Assembly: GCA_022450665.1 (NCBI GenBank)
Contig: JAKUPQ010000003.1
Location: forward strand, 5,054 to 63,782
Direction: 5' to 3'
DNA: 58,729 bases
Origin: Alphaproteobacteria bacterium
GTDB lineage: Bacteria; Pseudomonadota; Alphaproteobacteria; Rickettsiales; VGDC01
Positions 35,543-57,935 of the stretch are shown one piece after another. Each line of letters opens with the position of its first letter. Position 1 is the stretch's first letter. A program made the position numbers and the translations under genes. The notes beneath the pieces are model-generated. The model saw only the letters and a program-made list of their open reading frames with translations. It did no database searches and was not told the origin of the DNA.

Positions 35543-36424
35543 TTAGAATGGCAAACGAAACAATAACATGCACTCGTTTTCTGTATTTGCAACATCATAA
35601 ATCGCCACATCTGGATCGGTATCGGTGGCGCAATCATTTTTGTTGTTCCACGTAGTAACGGCCACTGGCTCAATGGTCATGATATGTCCTTTGCCCGGCA
35701 ATCCATCATCGGCCTTATAGTCAAGATTCCATGCTTCTTTTGGAATTAACATACGACCAAATGGCATGTCGTTGCCTGCATTCTCTCCCCCATAATACAT
35801 TACATGGCGATATTGCGACCCTGAAAAAATATAGCTGGGAATGGCGGCAAGCGATGCCATGTCGAACAATGCCCATGTGGTGTTGCGCAAATCGGATAGC
35901 GGGGCGTTTTTTCCGGCTTTGTAACATGCAATGCCGCCGCCGGTGGTGTCGCATTCATTAACGCCGCTAAAGCTTCCTTCTATCAGTCCGGCATTGGCTA
36001 AATGCTGCCAGGCGCGGAAATATTCGTGGCGAATTTCATCGCCGCCGCTTGCCATGATAGATTCTGGCACTTGAGCAATACTGTCATCGCCATCGCCATC
36101 GCAGGTGGCTTTAGTGGTGCTGGGAGTAGTTAGCAGTGCACAAGCGGTAAAGTCTGCATTTTCGGCGCCCCAGATTTGTGTGGCATTCGCCATATCGCCA
36201 GGCAAAGATTTATATTTGGTTTTAAATTGCTCTACGGCATTTACGTATTTTTCTTTGTCACTCAGAATTGTGCCAAGTCTTGCATTGCGCAATAAATTAT
36301 TACCCACCAATACACCGCCTACCACAATGGCAATAATGACCATAACAATCGAAATTTCGATGAGGGTAAACCCTCGGCTACCAGGAGAGGAAGATGAGGG
36401 ATTATGCATGTGTGAAATAGGCAT
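35543..36424 (-). CDS. Pseudopilin-like protein 1 (type IV prepilin N-terminus)
   Basis: The start at 36424 (293 residues) is set by AGGAG five bases upstream. The prepilin peptidase site reads RG|FTLIEISIVMVIIAIVVGG, with Gly before the cleavage and Glu at position 5 of the mature chain, followed by a hydrophobic helix. The body has KTKYKSLPGDMANATQIWG and FRAWQHLANAGLIEGSFSGVN, shared with four other proteins in this window. It is probably assembled or displayed by a type II secretion or type IV pilus-like system whose core genes are not in this window. It is paired with pseudopilin 2, thirteen bases away. Confidence 0.85.
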   Translation of the reverse strand: MPISHMHNPSSSSPGSRGFTLIEISIVMVIIAIVVGGVLVGNNLLRNARLGTILSDKEKYVNAVEQFKTKYKSLPGDMANATQIWGAENADFTACALLTTPSTTKATCDGDGDDSIAQVPESIMASGGDEIRHEYFRAWQHLANAGLIEGSFSGVNECDTTGGGIACYKAGKNAPLSDLRNTTWALFDMASLAAIPSYIFSGSQYRHVMYYGGENAGNDMPFGRMLIPKEAWNLDYKADDGLPGKGHIMTIEPVAVTTWNNKNDCATDTDPDVAIYDVANTENECMLLFRLPF

Positions 36425-36437
36425 ATACTCTCCTGAG

Positions 36438-37349
36438 TTAATATGAATCACCGGTAGGGCCGCGCAGCTCTGTGGGCAGGGTGAACACGAGCGCACAAGC
36501 AATTTCTTCGCTGGCAGTGTTATAGGTAACATCTGTCAGATTACTATCCCCAGCCGCAGAAGTGCAGTCTGCTGTTGGTGAGGCGCTGTCTAAAATCACT
36601 GTGATTACCCCCTCTGACGCAACGGTGTCATCTGCTTTACTATCAAGGTTACGTGCTTCTGCAGGTGTTAAAATAGGGCCTAGTGTAGGATCGCCATCGA
36701 CCTCTGCACCAAAAATCAAAACATTGCCATAGCTTTTATTAAATACCGGATTAGCGCTTCCGCCGTCTCCGGTGTAATCTTTGATACGCATCAACGTCCA
36801 GCCAGAGCCGCCAAGAGCGCCGGTAGGAATGTTATTGTTCGCTTCGGCATCGTCGCTGCTTGTGCTTCCGGCAACGCCTGTATAAGCGCGGGAAACCAAC
36901 CCCGCATTATATAGATGTTGCCACGCACGGAACATCTCATGATGCAGGTCGGGCACATCCATATCGCCAATTTTATCGTCGTCATTTCCATTGCATGTGG
37001 CTGTGCCAGTGCCACTGGCAAAGCTGTTGCCACTAACGCCGCCATCTGCCACTACCCCTGGCGAGATACAACCCTCTGTTCCGCTCACCTCTCCCCAATA
37101 TTCGGTAGCGTTGGGTATATCGCCTGGCAATGCGCCATAGCGCTCGGTAAACATAGTCATAGCGGCAGTGTAGGTTTGATAAGATTCTAAGATTTTACTC
37201 AGTCGCATGGAATGAATCAAATGCTGACCCGAAACCACCGCGCCAACTAAAATTCCTATAATTACCAATACGATAGAGATTTCCATCAGCGTAAAGCCAT
37301 GCTGGCGTGATGAAAGGGAGGAGGAAGAAATATTATTAAATTGCTGCAT
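36438..37349 (-). CDS. Pseudopilin-like protein 2
   Basis: This is a 303-residue paralog with the processing site HG|FTLMEISIVLVIIGILVGA, then ERYGALPGDIPNATEYWGE and FRAWQHLYNAGLVSRAYTGV. The ATG at 37349 was chosen over a TTG one codon earlier. The C-terminal part contains several cysteines, as in its paralogs. It is upstream of pseudopilin 1 in a two-gene unit and diverges from motA. Confidence 0.83.
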   Translation of the reverse strand: MQQFNNISSSSLSSRQHGFTLMEISIVLVIIGILVGAVVSGQHLIHSMRLSKILESYQTYTAAMTMFTERYGALPGDIPNATEYWGEVSGTEGCISPGVVADGGVSGNSFASGTGTATCNGNDDDKIGDMDVPDLHHEMFRAWQHLYNAGLVSRAYTGVAGSTSSDDAEANNNIPTGALGGSGWTLMRIKDYTGDGGSANPVFNKSYGNVLIFGAEVDGDPTLGPILTPAEARNLDSKADDTVASEGVITVILDSASPTADCTSAAGDSNLTDVTYNTASEEIACALVFTLPTELRGPTGDSY

Positions 37350-37557
37350 CAAATAACTATACTACCAGTGTTGCTTTGTTGTGCTGTATTTTCAACGCAT
37401 TGTTTATAGTCTAGTAGTCATTATAGCGGGATACAACAAAAAAAGCGAACGTCAGTTTTCATTTACTATTTATGAAAAAACATTGACTCTGCCTAGCCTC
37501 ACCACCTAAAAAGAAATGACCACCTCCATTATCTTCCATTATCGGGATTAGGCGCAT

Positions 37558-46527: not shown

Positions 46528-47445
46528 TTACTTAATGGAGAAAATCAGGGCGCATCCATTTTGCTTTTCGTTCACACTATAGTCAAGCTGGGTAGTGTAG
46601 CCTGCACCATTGGGATCGGAGGCTTCAAAGCAATCGGCCACGGTATTGGCATCGGCAGCGTAATCTCCTGCGGCAATAATACTACCGCTGGCAGGGAGGC
46701 CATCATCGAATTTATTATCTAACGAATCGGCATCCTGAGGAGGAATGATAGGCTGCATGGCATAATATCCTTCATATTGCGCCCCTAAAACCAATACATT
46801 GCCATAGTTAATTTCGGTAAATATCCACACATTATCGGCGGCAATAAAACGACACATGCCTTTGGTAAAACCGCCGCTGGCACTTATGCTGCGGCATGTG
46901 CCTGTGGCTTCGGTGCTATGGGGAATGTTAAGGATGCTCCAGCCTGCAGCTTTGTTGTAGTTTGAGCGTGGGATGTTGGTGCCAACCACTGCATCACGAT
47001 CGCTTGCAGCGCCGGGAACGCCAGTAACTTCGGCACGCAGCAAACCCATATTATGCAAGTGGTTCCATGCATAAAAACCTTCAGCTTCTTCGCCGCTTAA
47101 TCCTAGGGTTGTAGTGGTGGGAGCAATGAGCTGATTGCCGTTCCCGTTGCAGGTTTCGGTGCCTACGCCAGCATCATCAGGGCAGGTGTCGCCGCTGTTA
47201 GTGTCGCCTACTGCGCCCCAGATATACTCGGCATTATTCATGTCGCCGGGTAGTGCGTGAAAGCGCTCTTGAAATGCGGCAATAGCCGTACGGTATTCAT
47301 TCACTTCGGTGTTAATGGATTTTAACTCCATCGAGCGAATAAGATTTGCCCCTGCGAAAATCCCTCCGGTAAGTAATCCTAAAATTACTAAAACTACGGA
47401 AATTTCTAAAAGGGTGAATCCTGAACGTGATGTAGCGTTATGCAT
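46528..47445 (-). CDS. Pseudopilin-like protein 3
   Basis: This 305-residue paralog has the processing site SG|FTLLEISVVLVILGLLTGG, then ERFHALPGDMNNAEYIWGA and FYAWNHLHNMGLLRAEVTGV. The C-terminal part has paired cysteines. It is the third gene of the minus-strand unit pseudopilin 5-4-3, with a 12-base gap from pseudopilin 4. Confidence 0.85.
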   Translation of the reverse strand: MHNATSRSGFTLLEISVVLVILGLLTGGIFAGANLIRSMELKSINTEVNEYRTAIAAFQERFHALPGDMNNAEYIWGAVGDTNSGDTCPDDAGVGTETCNGNGNQLIAPTTTTLGLSGEEAEGFYAWNHLHNMGLLRAEVTGVPGAASDRDAVVGTNIPRSNYNKAAGWSILNIPHSTEATGTCRSISASGGFTKGMCRFIAADNVWIFTEINYGNVLVLGAQYEGYYAMQPIIPPQDADSLDNKFDDGLPASGSIIAAGDYAADANTVADCFEASDPNGAGYTTQLDYSVNEKQNGCALIFSIK

Positions 47446-47457
47446 AAGAAGCTTCGT

Positions 47458-48315
47458 TTAAAAGGCGTTGTAAAAAATGGGTGTACACACCGCCTGATCC
47501 ATATCAGCGTTGACGACATAATCAGCATCTCCACTAACCATTGCAGTAGCGACTGATATTTCATAAAACGCCGTGCCTGGTGTACCTAAAATGCTAGCGT
47601 CTGTGCAATTGGGGTTGCCAAATAAATTGACGCGTAAAATACCTTTTAGAGGCTTGCCATCATCTATTTTAATATCTATTCCCAAAGTATCTGCTGCGGA
47701 GATGATAGGATTAATACCATCGCTATCCGGTTCCCCACTATACTCTAACGTGCGGCTAGACATGCCGACATAAGACCAATCTGACCCAGAAGAAAAGTAA
47801 ACTAATTGTCCATACGTGCCAAATAACCAGCGGGCGCTGCCAATTTTACCTTCAGGCACATTTTGACCAACGATTTGTGTTAACCCATCATTCAGGCCGC
47901 TATATGTTCCATCTACTAGCCCTGCATTGCTCAAATGCTGCCATGCCAATAATGTTTCGTTGATTGCATCGCCGCTTACATCATATTTTTCATAAACGCC
48001 GTTACCATTACCACTACATGTGGCCGACATGGATGTGTCGGCGCCACTGCATGCGGTGGAGATGCCCCAATTATCGGTGGCTGTTGCGTGATCGCCCGGA
48101 TAGGCGTTGTAACGGGTTGTATAGCTATTAACCATGGCAACGTATTTTTCTTTTTCGTTTACAATGGAACGCAGTTCATAACTATGAAGCAGTGATTGGC
48201 CCGCGAAAATGCCACCAGCAACTAAGCCGAGAATTACCAGCACGATAGAAATTTCAACCAGAGTAAAGCCATGTTGAAATTGCGGATTGCGTATGGATGT
48301 TGTTGTTGGTTGCAT
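47458..48315 (-). CDS. Pseudopilin-like protein 4
   Basis: This 285-residue paralog has the processing site HG|FTLVEISIVLVILGLVAGG, then TTRYNAYPGDHATATDNWG and LLAWQHLSNAGLVDGTYSGL. Its start codon overlaps the stop of pseudopilin 5 by one base (TAATG), showing translational coupling. Confidence 0.85.
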   Translation of the reverse strand: MQPTTTSIRNPQFQHGFTLVEISIVLVILGLVAGGIFAGQSLLHSYELRSIVNEKEKYVAMVNSYTTRYNAYPGDHATATDNWGISTACSGADTSMSATCSGNGNGVYEKYDVSGDAINETLLAWQHLSNAGLVDGTYSGLNDGLTQIVGQNVPEGKIGSARWLFGTYGQLVYFSSGSDWSYVGMSSRTLEYSGEPDSDGINPIISAADTLGIDIKIDDGKPLKGILRVNLFGNPNCTDASILGTPGTAFYEISVATAMVSGDADYVVNADMDQAVCTPIFYNAF

Positions 48316-49118
48316 TAGCGGCCTACAATGTTTTTAAATATTATTGTGCAGGTAGGCGTTTCTAATCCTTGCGTATAAGTTGCGGTATCCGTGTCGCTAT
48401 TGATTGCAGAAACGTTACGTGCGGTCGCACAGCCGCCCAGTTGGGTTACAATATTCCCTTTGCCTGCCATGCCGTCGTCGTATTTTTCGTCAAGGGAACG
48501 CATTTCGGCTGGATATAATATGCTAGTGAATACAGCACTATCGCCTAGTGCAGATTGTGAAGGGTTAATGCCTAATACCAATATATGGCCATAACGGGCG
48601 TTGAAAAATGCGCTGCTTCCCGAAACGTTGCCTACCGAATCGCCCAGCCAAAATAATCCCCATTTTCCGGTGGGTATATCAGATTGTGGCTCATCATTCA
48701 CCCCATTGAACTTGCCTTTAATCAGCTCAGCATTGCTTAGATGCTGCCATATGCGATACCGCTCGGCCTCTTGACCCACAGGGCCAATTTTGCCATCAGC
48801 ATTACCATCACAAGTAGCTTTGCCGGTTTCGGCCACGGCGCAACTTGCCGCAGCACCCCATAATTCGGTGGCGCGGCGAAAATCGCCGGGTTTGGCAGAA
48901 AAGCGATCGGTAAATTGTGTGATTGCGGCATCGAAGGTGTTTTTTTCTTCGATCATGTTTTTGATGCGGGTAGAGCGGATTAAGTCGCGCCCTACTAAAA
49001 CACCACCTGCGATTACGCCAATGATAACCAGCACAATGGAAAGCTCCACCAGTGTGAAGCCTCGTTGTTGTGGCTTAGATGAATAAGGCGTTGTGGCTGT
49101 CAATAGTGTATTAACCAT
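48315..49118 (-). CDS. Pseudopilin-like protein 5
   Basis: This 267-residue paralog has the processing site RG|FTLVELSIVLVIIGVIAGG, then TDRFSAKPGDFRRATELWG and YRIWQHLSNAELIKGKFNGV. It is first in the three-pseudopilin operon and diverges from the protease gene; the 104-base gap between them should hold both promoters. No clear ribosome-binding site is visible. Confidence 0.84.
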   Translation of the reverse strand: MVNTLLTATTPYSSKPQQRGFTLVELSIVLVIIGVIAGGVLVGRDLIRSTRIKNMIEEKNTFDAAITQFTDRFSAKPGDFRRATELWGAAASCAVAETGKATCDGNADGKIGPVGQEAERYRIWQHLSNAELIKGKFNGVNDEPQSDIPTGKWGLFWLGDSVGNVSGSSAFFNARYGHILVLGINPSQSALGDSAVFTSILYPAEMRSLDEKYDDGMAGKGNIVTQLGGCATARNVSAINSDTDTATYTQGLETPTCTIIFKNIVGR

Positions 49119-51336: not shown

Positions 51337-53247
51337 ATGATGTTATTTCCTTTCGGGCATTTTTATGCACCTGACGATGCATTTTCGCCACTATCCCTAT
51401 CACCCTCCTTCTGGATGGACCCGAGTGACGAAACTACGATTACGCATAGCGCTAACGCGGTGAGTGCGATTAGCGATAAGAGCGGCAATGCTAACCACCC
51501 CTCCGGCATTACGGATGTGGTAACGGGCGGGAGCATTAAAACTAAGAATGCGCTGGTATTTAATGGCACTAGCAGTGTGATTACATTGCCTTCCAGCCTG
51601 TATGGCGTTCCGGCAGGAAACAACACCGTGTTTGTGGTGTTTCAGTCCGATTCTGCCTCGGCTACAAGTCGCCGTTTGTTCAGCGGCACTACATCGGGAA
51701 CGCGTTGGGGGCTGTTGCTGGAATGGCAGAACACAGAGTTTTCTGTGGTGAATGCAAATTCATACAATCCGCTTACCATTACCAATGCGCCCAACACTGA
51801 TATTCACGTTGCAGGGTTAATGCGCGAGGGAACAACGCTCACCTCGATTATGGATGATGCGGAAACAACAGCGGCAAAAGGTGCGGATGTGACAGCTACC
51901 GCGCTTACCATAGGTAACTATCCTATAACGCCTAATGGTTTTTACTCCGGTGCGATTGGCGAGGTGTTGATCTTTCCACGGGCGCTTACAGCGGCTGAGA
52001 AATCCGAGGTGGTTACTTACCTGATGCAAAAATGGACATATATCCCGCTTTACGATCTGGCTACCTCAGGCAGCGTTGCGGCTAATGGCGCGATTGTGCC
52101 GCTGCTGAATTTCCCTTCAGGAGTGTATGATTCCTCGCAAGATACCACCTTTTTGGCATGGCAGGACACGCCGGACGGAACAAACACCAGCTACAGCATT
52201 GTGGAATACGATCACGCAGCCGGAACCTTTGGCACAGTGAACACGCAAAATTCTACATCGCTTTACAGTGTATCAAATTATCATGGCCCACCTTCGCTAT
52301 GCATAGATTATGAAGGCTATGTGCATGTGTTCAACGGCTCTCATAACAGCGATCAGCGCCACAGCGTTAGCAGTGCGGCTTATGATACCAGCACCATGAC
52401 GCAGCAGACAGATATTGCCGGAAGCTATACCTATCCACGGCCTATTCCTGTGGGCGAGGATATTTATTTATTCTTGCGCGGCAACTATACGGATTTTGAT
52501 TTGTATCTTCGCAAAACGGCATCGCTTAGCAGTGGCGCAGCAACATGGGACGCGCATGTAGAAATTGCCACCATGGGTAGCTCTACGCGGTTTTATATGG
52601 GCGAAGTGAAAGCGGTTGGAACGGATATTTACATTCCGGCGTTTAAGGCCAATATTGGCGATACGCAGCGCGATAATGTGTATTTAATAATTTACGACAC
52701 TCTCACAAGCGGCGTGAAGAATATTGGCGGGACACATACCGTTGCCAGCGGTAGCTTGCCTGTTTCTGGCGCGGATATGGACACTTATTTCCGTGTACGC
52801 GATATGGGAACAAATGAGGCATCCGGCGAGCCAGCTATGGCCATTATTGATGGCAAACCGCATATCGTTTATTGGGAGGGCGTTAACCCCACCTTCACGC
52901 TCTATCACATCTATTGGACAGGCTCTGCATGGTCTACGCCAGAAGCGCTGGACACAGGGGCAGGGCGCTATATTGGCGTAACGCTGGCCACCCATGCCAA
53001 CGGAGATTTAGAGGTGTTGTATAACGCAGCACCCACCCGTACCTATCGCCGCATACGCTCCGGCGGCACATGGCAGGACATAGAGCTGGTGTTCGATAAT
53101 ATGGCTGATGTGAATAACAAAATCAGCGCGGTATTAAACGGCAAAGACGAGTTGCTGTATATCACCACAGAGCGTTCACTGAGTACTAGCGATGTAGACG
53201 GAACGCATAGAATTTTTGCACTGGGAACGGGCGGGTTTTTGGGGTGA
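51337..53247 (+). CDS. LamG-like / BNR-like repeat protein, probably phage-derived structural or receptor-binding protein
   Basis: The 636-residue protein begins with a concanavalin-like jelly-roll domain (about residues 20-230); the opening LSPSFWMDPSDETTITHS and AISDKSGNANHPSG is the typical start of LamG domains in phage tail appendages. The rest (about 245-636) resembles BNR-type beta-propeller repeats (PPSLCIDYEGYVHVFNGSHN, YPRPIPVGEDIYLFLRG). No signal peptide is visible. It leads a tightly packed cassette with lysis genes, so a phage or tail-like particle origin is likely. A surface carbohydrate-binding role is inferred. Confidence 0.7.
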   Translation: MMLFPFGHFYAPDDAFSPLSLSPSFWMDPSDETTITHSANAVSAISDKSGNANHPSGITDVVTGGSIKTKNALVFNGTSSVITLPSSLYGVPAGNNTVFVVFQSDSASATSRRLFSGTTSGTRWGLLLEWQNTEFSVVNANSYNPLTITNAPNTDIHVAGLMREGTTLTSIMDDAETTAAKGADVTATALTIGNYPITPNGFYSGAIGEVLIFPRALTAAEKSEVVTYLMQKWTYIPLYDLATSGSVAANGAIVPLLNFPSGVYDSSQDTTFLAWQDTPDGTNTSYSIVEYDHAAGTFGTVNTQNSTSLYSVSNYHGPPSLCIDYEGYVHVFNGSHNSDQRHSVSSAAYDTSTMTQQTDIAGSYTYPRPIPVGEDIYLFLRGNYTDFDLYLRKTASLSSGAATWDAHVEIATMGSSTRFYMGEVKAVGTDIYIPAFKANIGDTQRDNVYLIIYDTLTSGVKNIGGTHTVASGSLPVSGADMDTYFRVRDMGTNEASGEPAMAIIDGKPHIVYWEGVNPTFTLYHIYWTGSAWSTPEALDTGAGRYIGVTLATHANGDLEVLYNAAPTRTYRRIRSGGTWQDIELVFDNMADVNNKISAVLNGKDELLYITTERSLSTSDVDGTHRIFALGTGGFLG

Positions 53248-53250
53248 TGA

Positions 53251-53553
53251 ATGAAACATATCAGCGAGGAAGACGGAACGGTACGCACGATAGAGATTTT
53301 TTCAGATGATATAAGCCGCCACGTTAAATACGAGTTTAGTGATTTCGGCTTTCATCCCCACGATAAAAAAGAGGTGATTTTAGACATGGCGTTTTTGCGG
53401 GAGATGCGCAGACAGCAAGAAAAAGCCACCAAAGAAAAAGAGAAATATTTTAATGCGATGTGGGCGTTTGGTGTGACCGTGTTGCAAAAAGTTGGTTCAA
53501 TCGTGGGCGGCGCAGTGGCTGGCTACATTATTGCAAAAGGGAAGTTTTTATGA
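53251..53553 (+). CDS. Small membrane protein of the lysis cassette (holin-like position)
   Basis: The 100-residue protein has a polar N-terminal 65 residues with a charged helix (MRRQQEKATKEKEKYF) and one C-terminal membrane segment (about 72-95, VLQKVGSIVGGAVAGYIIA) with glycine-rich packing. Position ahead of an endolysin and a single membrane helix suggest a holin or a related lysis-control protein, but the topology is not that of a classic holin. The stop overlaps the next start by four bases. Confidence 0.55.
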   Translation: MKHISEEDGTVRTIEIFSDDISRHVKYEFSDFGFHPHDKKEVILDMAFLREMRRQQEKATKEKEKYFNAMWAFGVTVLQKVGSIVGGAVAGYIIAKGKFL

Positions 53554-53954
53554 GGCCGGTAAAGATATTGAGCATCGAGGATGATCAGGTTCAGGCAGAT
53601 ATGCTGGAATATCACTTGTTGCAATTGAATATGTGCAACGAGGTGGTGACAGCCCCAACCTTGGCAGCGGCGCGAGAGGCTTTGGAATCAGATACATTTG
53701 ACCTGATTATTTCCGACATTCGCTTGCCCGATGGAAACGGCATTGACTTTATCGAGGAAACTCGCGCCAAGCATCCGCATTTGGCGTTTATTGTGCTGAG
53801 TGCTTTGAACGATATGGATTATGTGGCAAAGGCCGACAGACTGGGCGTGGTGCTGTATGTGCGCAAGCCCATTACCGTGGCATTGGTTGCTGAAATTGCC
53901 AAGGAGTTTGAAAAAATCAACTTTGGCCTGATGACCAGCGAGGCGGCGCTATGA
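53550..53954 (+). CDS. Single-domain response regulator (CheY-like receiver) within the lysis cassette
   Basis: The 134-residue protein is a complete receiver domain: the acidic pair in LSIEDDQVQ, the phospho-acceptor Asp in DLIISDIRLPDGNG, the Ser in FIVLSALND and the Lys in YVRKPITVA. There is no output domain. Both ends overlap neighbours by four bases (ATGA), so it is translationally coupled to the membrane protein and to the endolysin. It needs a cognate histidine kinase that is not in this window. A signalling gene inside a lysis cassette is unusual. Confidence 0.88.
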   Translation: MRPVKILSIEDDQVQADMLEYHLLQLNMCNEVVTAPTLAAAREALESDTFDLIISDIRLPDGNGIDFIEETRAKHPHLAFIVLSALNDMDYVAKADRLGVVLYVRKPITVALVAEIAKEFEKINFGLMTSEAAL

Positions 53955-54439
53955 GCAAGGCAAAAGCAGCCGTAGCGGCGGCTTCACTGGCAGCAATCTT
54001 AGGCGGCGTGACCATGTATGGCGATGGTTACGATTTTATCAAACATTATGAAGGCGTGAAGTTGAAGCCTTATGTGGATGTGGCGGGGGTAAAAACCATT
54101 TGTGCCGGCCATACCGGATATGGCGTGAACAGGCAGGTTGCTACGCAGGAGTTATGCAACGAATTGATGCACGTGGATTTGGCCAATGCCCATGCGGCTA
54201 TTGAGCGGCATGTAACCGTGGCACTACCACAAAGCCGAGGCATGGCGCTGTTGAGCTTTGTGTTTAATTTGGGCGAGACGCAATTTAGAAAATCTACCCT
54301 GCTTAAAAAGCTGAACGCTGGCAATACCCGCGCCGCTTGCGATGAGCTGATGCGCTGGATTTATGCAGGGGGCAAAGTGCGCCACGGGTTGGTGTTGCGC
54401 CGTGCTGATGAGAGGGCGCTATGTTTAATCAACTCGTAA
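53951..54439 (+). CDS. Phage-type lysozyme (GH24 endolysin) with N-terminal membrane segment
   Basis: This enzyme cuts the beta-1,4 bond of peptidoglycan. The 162-residue product has an Ala-rich weakly hydrophobic N-terminus (KAAVAAASLAAILGGVT), as in SAR endolysins that are released from the membrane when the holin triggers. The catalytic Glu, Asp and Thr lie in HYEGVKLKPYVDVAGVKTIC (E-8-D-5-T), and the motif SFVFNLGETQFRKSTLLKKL is present. It overlaps the response regulator and the Rz gene (19 bases). Confidence 0.88.
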   Translation: MSKAKAAVAAASLAAILGGVTMYGDGYDFIKHYEGVKLKPYVDVAGVKTICAGHTGYGVNRQVATQELCNELMHVDLANAHAAIERHVTVALPQSRGMALLSFVFNLGETQFRKSTLLKKLNAGNTRAACDELMRWIYAGGKVRHGLVLRRADERALCLINS

Positions 54440-54870
54440 CCATTGCTGCTGTGGCATTTATATTGGGCGGTGCGGCGGCAGGGCTGGCACAAGGCTGGCG
54501 ATACGGTGCGAAAATCAGTGCCATGGAACGCCATCAAGCCATGGCAATGGCCTCTGCCCATAACAGAGCCGTCGAAACAAGCCAGCGTGTTGCCGCGCTT
54601 GATGAAAAATATCATACAGAGCTGGAGAAAGCCCATGAAGAAAACCGCGATCTTATGCGCGATGTTGAGTCTGGCCGTAAGCGCTTGCACGTCAAAGCCC
54701 GTTGCCCCGCAATGCCCCAAGCTACCACCCGTTCCGGCGTGGGTGATGCAACCAGCCCCCAACTTGATGCAGCCGCTAAACAGGATTATTACACCCTCCG
54801 AGAGGGAATCCGGCAAGTAACCACACAGCTAGGCGCGTGTCAGGAAATTCTAAAGCAGGAGCGGGGATGA
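54421..54870 (+). CDS. Rz-like inner-membrane spanin
   Basis: The 149-residue product has an N-terminal membrane segment (about residues 5-25), then a long charged coiled coil (RAVETSQRVAALDEKYHTEL and EKAHEENRDLMRDVESGRKR), typical of phage Rz i-spanins that connect inner and outer membranes during lysis. It begins inside the endolysin gene and contains Rz1 in the +1 frame. Cysteines are present near residue 94 and at the C-terminus. Confidence 0.8.
   Translation: MFNQLVTIAAVAFILGGAAAGLAQGWRYGAKISAMERHQAMAMASAHNRAVETSQRVAALDEKYHTELEKAHEENRDLMRDVESGRKRLHVKARCPAMPQATTRSGVGDATSPQLDAAAKQDYYTLREGIRQVTTQLGACQEILKQERG
54635..54820 (+). CDS. Rz1-like outer-membrane lipoprotein spanin, nested in Rz
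   Basis: The 61-residue product starts MKKTAILCAMLSLAVSAC, a lipoprotein signal with the lipobox AVSAC. The short mature part is Pro-rich (PVAPQCPKLPPVPAW), which is typical of Rz1. It lies entirely inside the Rz gene in another frame with GGAG upstream of the ATG, the classic nested Rz/Rz1 layout. Confidence 0.8.
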   Translation: MKKTAILCAMLSLAVSACTSKPVAPQCPKLPPVPAWVMQPAPNLMQPLNRIITPSERESGK

Positions 54871-54935
54871 TGGAGCAGTGGCATTATCCGCTATTGGCAG
54901 CGATTATGCTAGGGCTGCTGGCTTTTTTGGTGTGA
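54867..54935 (+). CDS. 22-residue membrane micropeptide after Rz
   Basis: An ATGA overlap with the Rz stop starts MMEQWHYPLLAAIMLGLLAF and one more Leu-Val before the stop. It would be a single membrane segment with almost no loops. The overlap pattern matches the rest of the cassette and supports translation, but a chance frame is possible. It ends two bases before the tRNA gene. Confidence 0.4.
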   Translation: MMEQWHYPLLAAIMLGLLAFLV

Positions 54936-54937
54936 AG

Positions 54938-55012
54938 TGGTGGCTCGAGAGGGATTTGAACCCCCGACCAAGGGATTATGATTCCCCTGCTCTACCACTG
55001 AGCTACCGAGCC
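54938..55012 (-). tRNA. tRNA-Met (anticodon CAT)
   Basis: A 75-base cloverleaf reads on the minus strand: acceptor GGCTCGG/TCGAGCC with a terminal wobble, D arm GCTC/GAGC, anticodon stem GGGGA/TCCCT with loop ATCATAA (anticodon CAT), T arm GGGGG-TTCGAAT-CCCTC, discriminator A and encoded CCA. The 3' end faces the phage-like cassette. Elongator Met is the likely identity; an Ile tRNA with modified C34 cannot be excluded from the sequence. Confidence 0.93.
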
Positions 55013-57050: not shown

Positions 57051-57935
57051 TTAGCTTTCAAACAAGGATTGTTCGGCAAGGCGTCTGCGGGTTAATCCGC
57101 GTAATGTGGTGGTGCCTACTTTGTTCCAGCGCGGGAACTCACTGGCTGCGCGATCGCCTTTGCCCATATTGAGCAATGTCAGCATGGTGCTGTTGCGGAA
57201 GTTACCCGGGCCAATGTTATATCCCCGCGAACCCAATGCCGAAAACTGGTTGTGGTTGAGTTTTACATGTACATAACGTTTTACATATGCCTCGGCTACA
57301 CGCACATCTTCGCGCAATAAGGCATGGGCTTCTTCTTCGGTAATAGCGGTAAAATATTCGCCGGGTTTAATGAGATGGCCATAGCCTATGGTGAGTTTGC
57401 CACCAGCGTCTTCATAAGGCTCTAACCGCAAGCCTTCGAAAGATTTAATTAACTCCAACCCTGCGCTATTGATTTCGCGTTTTGCAATGGGACTGTTGAG
57501 CGGAAAGGCTACGGTTTCGGACGTAGCTGAGGGCAGGGCATATTTAAGCATTTCGCGATAAGATGCGCTGGAGTAATATTTTGCATAAAACTCAGCATAA
57601 TAATCGGCATAATAATCTGCCAGATAGGGCGATTGGGTTTTGATGTATTCTTCATGAAAATGCGCGTAATAATTGGAGTATACATCGCGATAATGCATCC
57701 AGTTACGAATATTGCCATAAGAAAACATGCCAATAATAAGCAATATTACAACGGCGAACTTTCCCCATTTTAGTAAGGGGGGCAAGCGCCACCATGTGCG
57801 TAATGTCCAACGGGCTAATATCCATAGCCGGTGCAAGGTATAGCGCAGGCTTTTCCACGTTAGTCGCAAAAATGGAATAGCCATGCGGCGGCATTGCACG
57901 ATTTTGGGGTGCGATAAAAAGCGTTTTATGGCCAT
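57051..57935 (-). CDS. Membrane-anchored GH24 lysozyme with Tyr-rich stalk
   Basis: The 294-residue protein has a basic N-terminus of about 55 residues, a membrane helix (about 60-75), a Tyr-rich stalk (about 83-125, e.g. YLADYYADYYAEFYAKYY) and a C-terminal GH24 domain from about 150. The catalytic Glu, Asp and Thr lie in SFEGLRLEPYEDAGGKLTIG with GYGH following. The later family motif reads GSRGYNIGPGNF instead of the usual SFxFNxG. It is unrelated in domain layout to the phage-like endolysin at 53.9 kb and looks like a cellular cell-wall enzyme, perhaps for flagellar or secretion gaps, which is inference. Confidence 0.82.
   Translation of the reverse strand: MAIKRFLSHPKIVQCRRMAIPFLRLTWKSLRYTLHRLWILARWTLRTWWRLPPLLKWGKFAVVILLIIGMFSYGNIRNWMHYRDVYSNYYAHFHEEYIKTQSPYLADYYADYYAEFYAKYYSSASYREMLKYALPSATSETVAFPLNSPIAKREINSAGLELIKSFEGLRLEPYEDAGGKLTIGYGHLIKPGEYFTAITEEEAHALLREDVRVAEAYVKRYVHVKLNHNQFSALGSRGYNIGPGNFRNSTMLTLLNMGKGDRAASEFPRWNKVGTTTLRGLTRRRLAEQSLFES

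Follow-up and report, generated by a model that had tools for sequence, protein, structure and literature searches.

The locus described here raises the question of what a single-domain response regulator receiver is doing among the genes with which a phage lyses its host, given that the timing of lysis is usually described as set within the phage itself, by the holin and membrane energy. The locus lies in a 58,729-nt stretch of alphaproteobacterial DNA (hereafter the window) belonging to a 2.48-Mb Rickettsiales draft genome (154 contigs, 99% complete), where positions 51337–54870 of the forward strand form an intact and tightly overlapped operon whose ORFs are all unbroken by ORF reading, Pfam and PHROG. 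The cassette is phage-derived; its lysis genes are of an ordinary kind, and it is the receiver that is unusual.

Each of the named genes in the original prediction (LamG/BNR protein, membrane protein, receiver, GH24 endolysin, Rz and Rz1) was recovered intact by Pfam, PHROG and ORF reading. The operon begins with a tail-spike or fibre-like LamG/BNR protein of 636 aa (51337–53247, forward strand, as are all features of the cassette) that matches BNR_4 (3e-9) and Laminin_G_3 (3e-8) in Pfam and a virion structural protein in PHROG (2e-16); residues 257–532 additionally show weak similarity to the ulvan lyase PL25 (1.6e-4), and the combination of a virion structural score with this C-terminal match fits a tail spike. 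It is followed by a small membrane protein of 100 aa (53251–53553) with one C-terminal membrane segment (hydropathy peak at residues 77–95) and no Pfam family above cut-off, which shares a D-x-x-[LFA]-R-x-x-R motif with the protein preceding the holin and endolysin in related elements. Next come the 134-aa receiver (53550–53954; Pfam Response_reg, 3e-19) and a 162-aa GH24 endolysin (53951–54439; Pfam Phage_lysozyme, 1e-38; PHROG endolysin, 6e-53), which retains its catalytic triad (E34-x8-D43-x5-T49) and carries an N-terminal hydrophobic, Ala/Gly-rich, SAR-like segment at residues 4–24. The inner-membrane spanin Rz (54421–54870; Pfam Phage_lysis, 2e-26; PHROG Rz-like spanin, 4e-32) contains, nested in another frame, an ORF for the outer-membrane lipoprotein spanin Rz1 (54635–54820) with a VSAC lipobox and a Pro-rich region. 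Elsewhere, at two chromosomal loci with no phage genes nearby (L324 and L325), sequence reading identified LamG proteins that either precede SGNH-hydrolase-like parts or are fused to them; these could be isolated spike loci.

The ATGA packing described in the original prediction holds at three of the five junctions, which in order are a 3-bp gap, two ATGA overlaps that contain the receiver and endolysin starts, a 19-bp overlap between endolysin and Rz, and a further ATGA. This last one leads into a hydrophobic 22-codon ORF (54867–54935) that had been listed as a cassette gene and that we regard as doubtful and do not count, because it coincides with a weak terminator-like hairpin whose fold is no better than that of shuffled sequences (z −0.18). 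A promoter scan likewise returned sites no more numerous than in shuffles. In its GH24 triad, SAR-like N-terminus, Rz with nested Rz1 lipoprotein and overlapping genes, the lysis part resembles lambdoid-type endolysin-Rz-Rz1 cassettes, but differs from them in having a single-pass membrane protein and a receiver upstream, in lacking a surrounding phage, and in containing no holin or pinholin recognisable by Pfam or PHROG, the sole membrane candidate being the single-pass protein without a known family.

To place the receiver in context, we searched for the same gene order in other genomes, with a divided outcome: a similar insertion was present in two other families, but the receiver was missing from most comparable loci. 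Across 55 genomes of the order, the only match to the receiver at E ≤ 1e-12, besides itself, is a gene in a lysis operon of a genome of another family (G040). There the row reads GTA_TIM, DUF2793, membrane protein, receiver, GTA 3-TM holin (scoring below the Pfam cut-off) and endolysin, the last four genes are linked by ATGA overlaps, and the whole sits in a GTA-like tail/lysis module at hfq/hflX. A third family is represented by a prophage of G327, with genes for capsid, tape measure and tail, whose lysis end consists of receiver, membrane protein, endolysin and an Rz-like gene; the same receiver is also found in an IMG/VR viral contig. Another contig of that genome (G327-C26) ends in a fourth pair of membrane protein and receiver, and all four loci show an overlap between the receiver gene and the gene for the membrane protein. 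Among Rickettsiales endolysin loci that are distinct and have 900 bp or more of DNA upstream, 3 of 52 carry a receiver within the lysis operon, one in each of the three families. The original prediction had named absence of the receiver from homologous cassettes as counting against it, and this is partly what we found: the other 49 lack one, among them the corresponding locus of G020, a congener of G040, where only membrane protein, holin and endolysin occur. No receiver occurred in 112 unrelated viral lysis loci (46 + 66; the IMG/VR contig above was fetched separately) or in the lysis operons of 80 other genomic loci, and the small membrane protein is also found in receiver-free cassettes. 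Since most lysis loci do without it, the receiver is not needed for lysis; being rare and absent from a congener, yet always beside the membrane protein, it is an accessory gene that is often gained or lost and whose placement is not random. The receiver in the lysis operon is a recurrent but rare feature within the order Rickettsiales.

Wider searches gave no further case. Viral contigs queried with the window receiver, membrane protein, LamG protein and a receiver alignment contained no relative, and a class-wide receiver search found receivers, apart from that of the window, solely in longer open frames. Among GenBank phage records with receivers, the four examined all showed the receiver in a bacterial-type context with no GH24 gene in the stretch. 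Two receivers near endolysins were also set aside, one in Pseudoxanthobacter that proved to be an OmpR-type regulator of the chromosome accompanied by its kinase, and one in Ancylobacter that is longer than a single receiver domain and that we judged to lie outside the cassette. A phrase-based literature search yielded no named phage-encoded response regulator, and the nearest text concerned regulation of gene transfer agents (GTAs) rather than a receiver-carrying lysis operon.

As predicted, Pfam and alignment with the cassette receivers of G040 and G327 show a complete phospho-acceptor pocket in the window receiver, consisting of the E10/D11 acid pair, D56, S84 and K106; in G040 the second acidic position of the receiver is occupied by Asn. 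With Response_reg spanning residues 6–111 and no output domain, the protein resembles other single-domain CheY-like receivers in its acid pair, phospho-acceptor Asp, Ser and Lys, but is unusual in being encoded in a lysis operon and in ending in a short C-terminal tail with a G-x-M motif that aligns among three cassette receivers (window, G040 and G327-C26). The partner histidine kinase that the original prediction called for was not recognised near the cassette, a further departure from usual CheY-like receivers. In one tree the same three receivers formed a clade with support of only 76/30, and a fuller set placed the window receiver elsewhere, so a shared clade of cassette receivers is neither shown nor rejected by the trees. 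Position and overlap support the receiver as a member of the operon.

The gene content, the intact residues, the overlaps and the recurrence of the receiver next to the membrane protein at four loci are observed; that the receiver gates lysis is a reasonable inference. Its constant neighbour being the membrane protein, the simplest reading is that the receiver modulates that protein's part in lysis. Expression of the operon would produce the receiver together with the membrane protein and endolysin, and a host histidine kinase would then phosphorylate it. The receiver, in either its phosphorylated or unphosphorylated form, may bind either the membrane protein or some partner from the host, thereby changing the time or threshold of lysis; the membrane protein itself would act in lysis or its timing, with the receiver modulating it on phosphorylation. 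Our preferred, though tentative, reading (probability roughly 0.42) is that the cassette is an intact module from the late end of a phage-derived element, made up of the tail spike and the lysis genes and isolated next to the 3′ terminus of tRNA-Met, and that an accessory single-domain receiver was added to its lysis operon beside the membrane protein, where it would shift the time or threshold of lysis by phosphorylation. We consider it doubtful that this extends to a general pattern in which Rickettsiales phages and a domesticated GTA repeatedly recruited a single-domain receiver to work alongside the small membrane protein of lysis, leaving a host kinase to time bursting and particle release. 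Conversely, a receiver placed by a chance rearrangement and without function would be consistent with the rarity of the insertion and with how common receivers are in these genomes (20 receiver-type matches at E ≤ 1e-3 in this one), but it is hard to square with an intact pocket, overlaps on both sides and the same neighbour at four loci in three families, and we regard it as very improbable.

The setting of the cassette bears on where it came from. Immediately to its right lies a tRNA-Met(CAT) gene on the reverse strand (54938–55012, by ARAGORN), a possible integration site absent from the original prediction, and the 22-codon ORF stops 2 bp short of the CCA end of the tRNA. The genes to the left are of host type, namely type IV pilin-like genes, a trypsin-like protease and an ORF that resembles ankyrin but matches nothing in Pfam, and the G+C content is about 50% in the cassette versus about 45% leftward. 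A genome of the same family (G001) keeps the order tRNA-Met, HIT, purB and membrane-anchored GH24 gene, but beyond the tRNA's 3′ end it has cheB (in an operon) and another gene, which places the cassette at a synteny break. These features would suit a surviving prophage end at tRNA-Met in which the receiver is a passenger (a moron), acting for example as a phosphate sink on host signalling or having no role in lysis, and such a passenger would also agree with the unrelated genes that occur inside the lysis regions of relatives and with the many cassettes that lack a receiver. Nevertheless, the tRNA 3′ end matched only itself when searched against the window and the full genome assembly (allowing up to 3 mismatches in 25), although the att core might be shorter than 25 bases; no integrase was found nearby, the ORFs are all intact, and the receiver recurs specifically next to the membrane protein. 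On balance a prophage remnant with a passenger receiver seems unlikely.

Two other features of the neighbourhood deserve mention. The membrane-anchored GH24 gene (57051–57935, reverse strand) is syntenic in G001 (L095:4723-5694), which marks it as a resident gene outside the cassette. Arrays of type IV pilin-like genes occupy 35543–37352 and 46528–49118 on the reverse strand, and among the loci examined this family was otherwise seen only at the GTA-type terminase and portal of the same genome (L109, L331), at the G327 membrane-protein/receiver pair (L158, L333) and in G038 (L161).

The original prediction noted the absence of capsid, terminase and integrase genes and suggested a search for particle genes elsewhere. 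None of the three was found near the cassette, but phage structural genes are present elsewhere in the genome, where GTA-type head and tail genes occur in separate blocks that make up a multi-locus RcGTA-like element: terminase, portal-capsid-tail tube, and a GTA_TIM tail module. One contig (C91) carries the only HK97 capsid gene of the genome along with portal, S78 protease, connector, head-completion and tail-tube genes; the first part of the portal lies at the end of a second contig (C17), on which a Terminase_6C gene stands alone amid pilin-like genes. A third contig (C23) carries DUF2460, hub, NlpC/P60, GTA_TIM and a DUF2793-like protein adjoining hfq and hflX. Six other genomes, from two further families, have a GTA tail or lysis module in this same neighbourhood, so that the block on C23 looks vertically inherited rather than newly inserted; altogether, a GTA-like tail/lysis module has been kept beside hfq/hflX in seven Rickettsiales genomes of three families (L087, L093, L100, L103, L119, L085, L291). 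In the relatives this module ends in a holin and an endolysin, both of which are missing there in the present genome.

Two further GTA_TIM elements of the genome are prophage-like. One (C39) has a different capsid type and its own holin and endolysin, and the other (C32) is perhaps joined to a contig that starts with a holin/endolysin pair (C10), so that it probably has that pair across a contig break. In the C39 element a two-gene insertion on the opposite strand, encoding a Fic-like and an HTH protein by sequence reading, splits the tail module (L090:1722-2765).

With these lysis sets accounted for and the hfq/hflX module left without one, the cassette could, by elimination, be the lysis and spike locus of a multi-locus domesticated RcGTA-like element, in which case the receiver would couple particle release to host signalling. 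In Rhodobacter, the CckA-CtrA phosphorelay affects particle release. Having structural clusters elsewhere and an isolated tail-spike/lysis locus would match RcGTA-like agents with separate loci, as the tail-fibre and lysis genes of RcGTA are located outside its main cluster (PMC8601537), and G040 offers a GTA-type hfq/hflX module with the receiver inside it. The cassette nevertheless differs from such agents in its receiver and in the type of its lysis genes: it has no GTA holin by Pfam, Rz/Rz1 and a phage-type endolysin stand in place of the GTA holin/endolysin pair, this endolysin is only 33% identical to the G040 GTA endolysin, and the endolysin type together with Rz/Rz1 argues for a phage source. 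The link is moreover made by elimination within a fragmented assembly, the joint working of the loci is putative, and a survey of 70 Rickettsiales genomes reported no RcGTA-like cluster (PMC6821227). We therefore hold a GTA assignment to be somewhat unlikely.

Under our preferred reading of an intact late-end module with an accessory receiver, what is already known is a lysis part of ordinary kind and what is new is the receiver inside the lysis operon. A regulatory layer over the release of a domesticated phage, of the sort that the receiver may provide, has a parallel in Caulobacter, where LypABC controls GTA lysis and canonical holin-endolysin genes are reported to be absent (PMC13236601); the proteins are unrelated to those described here. 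If the reading is correct, two-component signalling would be wired straight into lysis through a receiver that the lysis operon supplies, with a bearing on how domesticated particles keep down the number of cells they kill, and in these Rickettsiales the bursting of cells or the release of particles might be linked to signalling in the host.
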